DNA from: a virus | Direction: 5' to 3' (one strand) | Length of the DNA stretch: 39,251 nt | IMG/VR virus record: IMGVR_UViG_3300028608_000039 | Coordinates: 1 to 39,251 of that record | In this document: positions 7,673 to 18,860 of the stretch, piece after piece | How positions within the stretch are numbered: the stretch's first letter is position 1 | Layout of the letters: each line of letters opens with the position of its first letter | The notes under the pieces: generated by a model | The model's input: only the letters and a program-made list of their open reading frames with translations | Database searches by the model: none | Told to the model about the DNA's origin: nothing | Made by a program: the position numbers and the translations under genes

Positions 7673-7882
7673 TTAGGCGGCTTTTGGGTGCTGCAGGAAA
7701 TAGTTGGTCAGCGCCTGAACGGAGCTGATGCGCGGGTCCTTGGTGGCCCCGTTGGAAATCTTGCTCATCGTGAAGTACGGGACCTGGGCGGCCTCGCTGA
7801 TCTCCCGCCATTCACCGCGGCGGCTGAGGAGCTCGTCCTTGATGAAGCCGAGCAAGTCGTTTTGAAAATTGGCTACGGACAT
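7673..7882 (-). CDS. Cro-like helix-turn-helix regulator
   Basis: A 69-residue protein. WREISEAAQVPYFTMSKISNG is an XRE-type helix-turn-helix (residues about 24-44), followed by SSVQALTNYFLQH. It is the first gene of the minus-strand early operon, diverges from the repressor gene and shares the operator region with it. This is the place and size of Cro, which favours lytic growth by blocking repressor synthesis. AAGG lies 8 bases before the ATG. Confidence 0.85.
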   Translation of the reverse strand: MSVANFQNDLLGFIKDELLSRRGEWREISEAAQVPYFTMSKISNGATKDPRISSVQALTNYFLQHPKAA

Positions 7883-7913
7883 GGGGAAAACCTTTTATGA
7901 GTCATTCATGCAT

Positions 7914-7943
7914 ATCCTAGCCGTATACGAATAATTTGGTCAA
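7914..7943 (-). promoter_or_regulatory. PR-like early promoter
   Basis: On the minus strand, TTGACC (7943-7938), an 18-base spacer and TAGGAT (7919-7914). One operator (7919-7932) fills the spacer next to the -10 and another (7943-7956) abuts the -35. It drives cro and the replication operon; repressor bound here would occlude polymerase. Confidence 0.75.
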
Positions 7944-7989
7944 GCCGCAAACGACTATTGATTAATGCGATGCTAAGCCGTATATGGAT
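7919..7989. promoter_or_regulatory. Right-type operator group (three sites)
   Basis: Three 14-bp sites in the same orientation: AGCCGTATACGAAT (7919-7932), AGCCGCAAACGACT (7943-7956) and AGCCGTATATGGAT (7976-7989). The core CGTATACG is self-complementary, as expected for a dimeric repressor. Their positions relative to the two divergent promoters copy lambda OR1-OR2-OR3. Confidence 0.8.
7958..7986 (+). promoter_or_regulatory. PRM-like repressor promoter
   Basis: TTGATT (7958-7963), a 17-base spacer and TATATG (7981-7986). The third operator covers the -10, so binding there would shut off repressor synthesis. The expected start near 7993 leaves almost no leader before the ATG at 8003. Confidence 0.65.
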
Positions 7990-8002
7990 TAGGGGTCAGA
8001 CG

Positions 8003-8671
8003 ATGCTTTCGATACGCCAAATTTTGGCCAACAACCTGAAGTTCTTGATGGCGAGCAACGCCAACCTGGACACGCAGCAGAAGCTGGCCGATAAATCAGG
8101 TATCGGTCAGCCGACCATTGGTCGCACGCTTAGAGAAGAATCTGATGCGGGGATCAGCACGGTGCATAGTCTGGCCAAGGCGTTCAAGATCGAGGCGCAA
8201 GACTTGCTGGATGCAGGCCTTATCGATCGCCTAAAGGGAGAAGGCTCAAATGTCAGTTCCGGGCATGGCCTTTACAATCCAGTACCTTTGATTTCATGGG
8301 TAGCAGCCGGGATGCTAGACGAAAGTTTTGACCTGCTTGAGAAACACGACGCCGAGGAATGGCTGCAATGCCCCTACTCGCACAGCTCCAGTTCTTTCTG
8401 TTTGCAGATAAAGGGACTGAGCATGTGGCCGGAGTACAGGGACGGAGAAATCATTCTGGTGGATCCGGAAGTAGAGGCCAGGCACAACAGCGATGTAGTG
8501 ATACGAACGCCAGAGCCTGACAGGAAGACGACGTTTAAGAGGCTACAGATAACAGAAGACGGCACATATCTCATGGCGCTCAACCCGGATTTCCCGGACC
8601 GCTATATACAGATGCCGGAAGAAACGAAGATATGCGGTGTGGTTACAGGCTCATGGATGAGGCGCAGGTAG
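8003..8671 (+). CDS. CI-like repressor with S24 autocleavage domain
   Basis: A 222-residue protein from ATG 8003; AGGGG lies 7 bases upstream, so the longer reading from 7958 is rejected. Residues 25-45 form the helix-turn-helix (QQKLADKSGIGQPTIGRTL). The C-terminal half is a LexA/CI S24 peptidase domain: an Ala102-Gly103 cleavage pair (WVAAGML), catalytic Ser140 in GLSMWP and Lys179 in TTFKRL. DNA damage would promote RecA-stimulated self-cleavage and induction. It keeps both early promoters off through the flanking operators. Confidence 0.95.
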   Translation: MLSIRQILANNLKFLMASNANLDTQQKLADKSGIGQPTIGRTLREESDAGISTVHSLAKAFKIEAQDLLDAGLIDRLKGEGSNVSSGHGLYNPVPLISWVAAGMLDESFDLLEKHDAEEWLQCPYSHSSSSFCLQIKGLSMWPEYRDGEIILVDPEVEARHNSDVVIRTPEPDRKTTFKRLQITEDGTYLMALNPDFPDRYIQMPEETKICGVVTGSWMRRR

Positions 8672-8688
8672 AATAGAAGGTCCAACGG

Positions 8689-8711
8689 AGCCCGCCTAGC
8701 GCGGGCTTTTT
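8689..8711 (+). terminator. Terminator after the repressor gene
   Basis: AGCCCGC, a 5-base loop, GCGGGCT and then five T residues. It starts 17 bases after the repressor stop and separates lysogenic transcription from the early promoter immediately downstream. Confidence 0.85.
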
Positions 8712-8724
8712 GTCGCCAGCCGAA

Positions 8725-8789
8725 AACCGCATACGAATATTTTTGAAAAAATAGTCGAATACGGCTTGACGAGATAACCGTATACGCAT
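8725..8789. promoter_or_regulatory. Left-type operator group (three sites)
   Basis: AACCGCATACGAAT (8725-8738), AGCCGTATTCGACT on the minus strand (8766-8753) and AACCGTATACGCAT (8776-8789). They share the consensus of the three sites beyond the other end of the repressor gene. Two of them overlap the -35 or fill the spacer of the plus-strand early promoter, mirroring lambda OL. Confidence 0.8.
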
Positions 8790-8794
8790 AACTT
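8766..8794 (+). promoter_or_regulatory. PL-like early promoter
   Basis: TTGACG (8766-8771), a 17-base spacer and TAACTT (8789-8794). One operator lies in the spacer and one over the -35. It would drive the long plus-strand early operon that ends at the excisionase-like gene. Confidence 0.7.
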
Positions 8795-9010
8795 TAGAGC
8801 CATGAACGGCTAACACAGAGTTCGCCAGGACCTGAAAGGGACCGCCACACGACTGGTGAAGCCGCCAGATAGCACGGGATCAGCGAAGTGATCTCTCAGC
8901 CCTCTCCCCGAGGACCGACTGAAACCAAGTTCTTTAAGCAGAACGGAACCCACAGATTTACTGATGCCGCTTCGATGAGGCGGCATTGGAAATCAACGGA
9001 GGGCAAGACG
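8795..9010 (+). promoter_or_regulatory. Structured early leader without a convincing gene
   Basis: About 215 bases with no good ORF. Small inverted repeats follow one another: AGCC/GGCT near 8798-8810, GATCA/TGATC near 8879-8893, GTTCT/AGAAC near 8930-8945, and the strongest, ATGCCGC/GCGGCAT at about 8963-8987, 12 bases before the GGAGGG ribosome site of the first gene. The reading of the same frame from 8888 lacks a ribosome site. A role in antitermination or translation control is possible. Confidence 0.45.
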
Positions 9011-18462: not shown

Positions 18463-18860
18463 CCGACTACAGCGAACTGAAACTGCTGGCCGAGCAATGC
18501 AAGGAATTGCGTAGTCATGGATGGCTTGGGCAGATGGCTGTCAGCGAAGATAAAGTTCTAGAGCTGATCGCCGAGAACGAGTCCGCCAACAAGCACTTGG
18601 CGAATGAATCGAGCAATGTGCAGGCAGCCTTGGCAGAAATCTTGAGGCTGACGGCCGAGAATGAGGCGTTGCGCAAGGAGCGCGAAGGGAAAGTCCTCTG
18701 CGATCTTGAGTTGTTCGAGACCCTTCGTGATTCGGCCAACTCAGAGGCGGACGAGCATCGACAGTGCATGGCGACATACCGCCCGCTCCGGCAGGCGAAT
18801 CTGGATTCGGTCGTGAAGAAGTGCGACGAGCTACTCGCAGCCATGAGCAAGGAGGGTTGA
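18459..18860 (+). CDS. Coiled-coil phage protein
   Basis: A 133-residue protein from ATG 18459. Residues about 35-78 are a long heptad-bearing helix (NVQAALAEILRLTAENEALR). Similar modular coiled-coil proteins are common near the integrase end of early operons. Unknown role. It precedes the excisionase-like gene by one base. Confidence 0.7.
   Translation: MTDYSELKLLAEQCKELRSHGWLGQMAVSEDKVLELIAENESANKHLANESSNVQAALAEILRLTAENEALRKEREGKVLCDLELFETLRDSANSEADEHRQCMATYRPLRQANLDSVVKKCDELLAAMSKEG

Follow-up and report, generated by a model that had tools for sequence, protein, structure and literature searches.

A repressor gene flanked on either side by a group of four related operators very probably forms a standard lambdoid CI/Cro switch in the immunity region of a temperate Pseudomonas phage. 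One of the groups, OR (sites A-B-C-D), lies between the cro gene and the repressor gene, and the other, OL (D'-C'-B'-A'), on the far side of the repressor gene. The virus record (39,251 bases, here called the window) has phage gene content; elsewhere in it an integrase, NinG and an SU10-type portal are encoded. A preliminary description of this DNA had proposed lambda-like operator arrays around the repressor gene in a mirror plan. The flanking arrays are strongly supported by the present analysis, while the supposed mirror is the lambda plan on the other strand.

Repressor, Cro and gene setting

The genes and the terminator of the switch are the following.

8003..8671, plus strand: repressor gene (222 aa, HTH_3 and Peptidase_S24 domains)
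7673..7882, minus strand: cro-like gene (69 aa, all-alpha HTH repressor, PHROG 9425)
8689..8712, plus strand: terminator-like hairpin AGCCCGC..GCGGGCT with a T run, 3' of the repressor gene (direct reading)

As expected of a lambdoid switch, the repressor is of the CI type, with a helix-turn-helix and an S24 self-cleavage domain, and its sequence matched the lambda repressor (3bdn) in a phmmer search (E 3.4e-13). The pair Ala102-Gly103 (the A-G cleavage site), Ser140 and Lys179 are all present and, in the sequence comparison, invariant across the repressor relatives. Given this invariance and the RecA-dependent self-cleavage that is an established property of the CI/S24 repressor family, RecA-dependent self-cleavage is to be expected of this repressor as well. 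A structure model of the repressor built from eight sequences was too poor for use (pLDDT 55).

The small cro-like HTH gene is transcribed divergently from the repressor gene, adjoins it in every relative checked and is followed by replication genes, another lambdoid trait: leftward from the repressor come the cro-like, O-like and DnaB genes, and rightward a YqaJ exonuclease. The AlphaFold model of Cro (pLDDT 86) is all-helical, with four helices, and a PDB fold search with it gave weak HTH matches only (434 Cro included), none at E <= 0.001. A hairpin with a T run resembling that at 8689..8712 was seen in all the close relatives inspected; a simple terminator scan of the window missed it.

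Promoters and operators

Three promoters were predicted from reading the sequence.

7914..7943, minus strand: PR, lytic promoter for cro (-35 TTGACC at 7943-7938, 18-bp spacer, -10 TAGGAT at 7919-7914)
7958..7986, plus strand: PRM, repressor promoter (-35 TTGATT at 7958-7963, 17-bp spacer, weak -10 TATATG at 7981-7986)
8766..8794, plus strand: PL-like promoter (-35 TTGACG at 8766-8771, 17-bp spacer, -10 TAACTT at 8789-8794)

The predicted -10 boxes match the consensus poorly; the counterparts of the PL -10 in the relatives read TAGATT, TAATTT or TACTTT at the same place. The -35 of PRM is unrecognisable in L022-L027, where it is not conserved, and this fits an activation-dependent promoter, with which it would be compatible without being proof of it.

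The eight operators are 16-bp imperfect palindromes with the consensus TAGCCGTA followed by TACGGCTA. In the list below the first score comes from a matrix made from the relatives only and the second from a matrix made from the distant relatives only.

7899..7914, unstranded: operator A, GAGTCATTCATGCATA, over the PR start region (scores 10.0 and 8.9)
7918..7933, unstranded: operator B, TAGCCGTATACGAATA, in the PR spacer (22.2 and 19.3)
7942..7957, unstranded: operator C, AAGCCGCAAACGACTA, overlapping the PR -35 and directly adjoining that of PRM (18.4 and 16.9)
7975..7990, unstranded: operator D, AAGCCGTATATGGATT, covering the PRM -10, OR3-like (20.4 and 19.7)
8724..8739, unstranded: operator D', AAACCGCATACGAATA, upstream of PL (16.6 and 13.9)
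8752..8767, unstranded: operator C', TAGTCGAATACGGCTT, overlapping the PL -35 (18.3 and 15.9)
8775..8790, unstranded: operator B', TAACCGTATACGCATA, in the PL spacer (17.7 and 15.2)
8797..8812, unstranded: operator A', GAGCCATGAACGGCTA, over the PL start region (15.2 and 15.9)

Related operators are found, as in lambdoid switches, on both sides of the repressor gene and overlap two outward-directed predicted early promoters, and one of them lies on the predicted repressor promoter (D, over the PRM -10). B and B' occupy the -35/-10 spacers, C and C' are set against the -35 TTGACS, and A and A' cover the start regions, each just past the -10 of a lytic promoter. The preliminary description had correctly placed one site of each group in the spacer and one at the -35, and had rightly seen an OR3-like site over the -10 of the repressor promoter. 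Its six sites (B, C, D and their primed counterparts) are all present where it put them, but as 16-bp near-palindromes and not as copies of one strict 14-bp consensus: A-R-CCG-Y-A-W-A-CG is exact in four of the six, with one mismatch each in the sites at 7976 and 8753, and the core CGTATACG that all six were said to share is complete in only two (7918-7933 and 8775-8790). Describing the 8753 site as reversed has little meaning, since the site is near-palindromic. The groups of three that it proposed are in fact groups of four, A (7899-7914) and A' (8797-8812) having been overlooked; three operators per group are typical of lambdoid switches, without defining them.

Chance occurrence of the motif

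The motif can be obtained with no seed from the window. A de novo symmetric motif search in the repressor-gene flanks of five relatives with 57-63% identical repressors (L028, L029, L030, L033 and L032, which is phage PAJU2) converged on TAGCCGTATACGGCTA. On the window, this distant-relatives matrix ranks D first (19.7), followed by B (19.3), C (16.9), C' and A' (15.9 each), and gives lower scores to B' (15.2), D' (13.9) and A (8.9). Scores of at least 12 are expected 0.63 times per 39 kb, and eight were seen in the window, seven in the two control regions and one at 18512. When seven phage sequences were scanned whole, scores above 14 were confined to the two control regions.

That the matches are effects of chance or base composition is hardly conceivable. 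The consensus of the preliminary description does occur, with two mismatches allowed, 68 times in the window against 51 expected, which is slightly over chance and is given no weight here, but the matrix scores and the conservation in relatives are opposed to such an origin, and it was rejected on the strength of the matrix whose training set excluded the window and its near relatives. Further operators elsewhere in the genome were considered and rejected: 13178 and 18512 (scores 11 and 14) are within or next to coding sequence, and the outlying hits in the relatives included no consistent counterpart of either. The match at 18512-18527 (TAGTCATGGATGGCTT, score 14-15) is a good isolated one inside an open reading frame.

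Conservation in relatives

The arrays were compared in 16 IMG/VR records with full-length similar repressors (57-95% repressor identity), one of which is PAJU2 and a few of which are near-identical to each other; conservation across them is only partly independent because of shared ancestry. A, B, C and A', B', C' were found in all 16, so that the start-region, spacer and -35 sites are kept at both promoters throughout. The centre spacings of B-C (24 bp) and C'-B' (23 bp) are invariant in 16/16 records, those of A-B and B'-A' range over 18-20 and 21-22 bp, and D'-C' spans 28-30 bp in the relatives that have D'. In the closer group of relatives, the site columns are more conserved than the intervening DNA (0.895 vs 0.639 in OR, 0.858 vs 0.626 in OL). 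Most relatives have four sites per group.

The outer sites are less regular. D is present in 16/16 records, at 14 bp from C in L028, L029, L030 and L033 and at 32-33 bp in the others, and D', the least conserved of the eight, was not found at its usual place in the distant relatives L028, L030 and L033. The expectation that the earlier six sites would recur in relatives is borne out for B, C, B' and C' in every record, with D shifted in four and D' missing in three. Between C and D, L025/L026 have a possible weak fifth OR site (TAACCATAAATGAGAC, score 5.6), 14 bp from C towards D, which is the position of D in L028, L029, L030 and L033; it may be a clue to the way in which D shifted.

The array is lacking in phage D3 and in more distant repressor relatives (38-41%), which gave isolated weak hits of at most 11.4. 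In a relative from the genus Pseudomonas (L017, 55% over residues 25-222) the possible operators are richer in AT, AATTCATTTGTGAATT and TATTCTTAAATGAATA, and their sequence suggests a shifted binding specificity.

The start-region sites

A' is a strong site (per-position chance 5e-7), and A a weak one in the window (score 8.9, per-position chance 1e-4) that is better matched in most relatives; A was accepted as an operator mainly because of its fixed position and its conservation in relatives. Its weakness in the window, and the overlap of both sites with initiation sequence, could be taken to mean that only the six sites described earlier are operators and that A and A' are by-products of start-region constraints. 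We consider this improbable: A' reaches 15-20 bits in most relatives and stays near-palindromic where its sequence differs (TAGCCACAAACGGCTA; TATCCACGGATGGATT in PAJU2), and A is near-palindromic in other clades too (AAGCCATGTGCGGCTA, TATCTATTCATGGATA). Another reading of A', as the stem base of a 5'-terminal hairpin in the PL RNA, was rejected, because a transcript beginning at the predicted start would include no more than roughly half of the site.

A different matter is which protein uses these sites. A central 'GA' is found in nine of 17 distinct A/A' sequences and in none of 62 others, as if they were a subclass, and CI and Cro might divide the sites in a way unlike lambda, with A and A' mainly Cro sites or with Cro limited to one or two of the eight operators. 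In phiKO2 and PY54, Cro binds OR3 only, and the phiKO2 repressor binds all its sites (PMC4997575), and the Cro found here appears from its model to be a different, all-alpha HTH protein. Such a division is possible, if on the doubtful side, for the 'GA' subclass was spotted post hoc among related sequences and is a lead only, base constraints on promoters in the start region could yield the same bias, and A' matches the shared motif well (10.8-19.8 bits in relatives). That A and A' form a separate operator class with its own centre, serving Cro or a second pair of repressors, with CI and Cro (or, within one loop, two CI octamers) sharing the work unlike in lambda, we regard as unlikely.

A model of the switch

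In the standard switch with four and four operators that we favour, LexA/CI-type repressor dimers, and probably also Cro, would bind the 16-bp near-palindromic operators. Each group would span an outward lytic promoter from its start region through the -35/-10 spacer and the -35 to its upstream side. One group would shut off cro and the replication genes, and the other the recombination-side operon. Both lytic promoters would be silenced by repressor pairs at B-C and B'-C', with the A sites contributing extra blockage at the transcription start. C has its centre about 43 bp upstream of the start predicted for PRM, near the place that OR2 has in lambda, so that repressor bound at C may activate its own promoter. 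Since D covers the PRM -10, high levels of repressor (or Cro) would shut PRM off there and limit repressor synthesis. Cro may share some of the repressor's sites, and the switch would be released when RecA triggers the repressor to cleave itself. Repression and the autoregulation at D we infer strongly; the assignment of proteins to sites, the cooperativity of B-C (24/23 bp apart) and induction are probable, and the activation of PRM and OL-OR looping over 810-857 bp are plausible by analogy.

Looping would be an addition to the 4+4 switch and not a replacement of it. Repressor tetramers on site pairs would join the groups across the 810-857 bp, and four sites per group would permit two octamers, compared with lambda's octamer plus tetramer. 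To this we give an even chance. The two matched arrays with conserved spacing would suit it, and looping of OL to OR is known for the repressors of lambda, HK022 and phiKO2, at natural spacings of 2.3, 0.7 and 0.63 kb; for HK022 (about 700 bp) and phiKO2 (about 630 bp) it was seen in an assay (PMC8053113). However, the A-B (18-20 bp) and C-D (14-33 bp) spacings vary among relatives, whereas B-C does not.

Comparison with known switches

As here, lambda has its repressor gene between two operator groups and divergent early operons, spacer and -35 sites 24 bp apart at OR and a site on the repressor promoter; unlike here, it has three 17-bp operators per group and 2.3 kb between OL and OR. A symmetric matrix made from lambda's own operators returned exactly six sites on lambda, with no start-region site and nothing else nearby, which indicates that the method does not create extra sites. 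Three operators on each side are annotated in the records of lambda, P22 and phage 21. P22 and phage 21 share with the window the operators on both sides of the repressor gene and differ in their unrelated 18-bp consensus (ATTTAAG..CTTAAAT) and in having three annotated sites per group. Like site A, P22 OR1 covers the start region of PR, so that a start-region operator is not new in itself; P22 OL1 is upstream of the PL start, unlike A'.

The immB regions of N15 and phiKO2 likewise have a repressor gene flanked on either side by 16-bp operators, and N15 a small all-alpha Cro, but they carry three OR and two OL sites and a repressor without the self-cleavage residues (PMC4997575). Pseudomonas phage D3 has related replication-gene DNA (66%) and the same cI-cro layout; its operators are unrelated 14-bp sequences such as ATGAGTATTCCCAT, three of them annotated between cI and cro and none beyond cI. 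For BPP-1 and YA3, de novo motif searches gave a signal too unclear for site counts. The unusualness of four and four sites is judged against lambda, P22, 21, D3 and N15/phiKO2. What seems new, as a modest variation, is the combination of start-region, spacer, -35 and upstream sites at both promoters, each position having a precedent (lambda, P22 OR1).

The closest known phage for comparison of the sites is PAJU2 (Pseudomonas phage, Detrevirus), with a repressor 57% and a Cro 41% identical to those of the window and the same eight-site layout, in a slightly shifted consensus (TATCCGTA-like half-site). The layout predicts the operators of PAJU2, of which its record annotates none and on which a literature search found no paper. 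The phages concerned, of Pseudomonas and Azotobacter, offer a lambda-type switch whose eight operators are alignable even between divergent relatives. Two of the spacings are constant and others vary, which makes these phages a series in which to ask which operator positions and spacings a lysogeny switch needs, and whether additional operators at the transcription start alter repression or loop stability.

The PL leader

The PL leader contains a strong RNA hairpin element at 8948-9002 (shuffle z -4.1), which is 98% identical in Pseudomonas phages MR13/MR15, 96% in L018, 87% in cyanobacterial Leptolyngbya phages and 85% in L033. It has no Rfam match and is without annotation, and may be a structured leader RNA, of the antitermination kind or another. 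A boxA-like CGCTCTTTA is found in the PL leaders of L020, L021, L028 and L030, with near matches in most other relatives; the window has only a GTTCTTTAA-type sequence, at 8930-8938. The sequence of these boxA-like elements suggests Nus-dependent antitermination.
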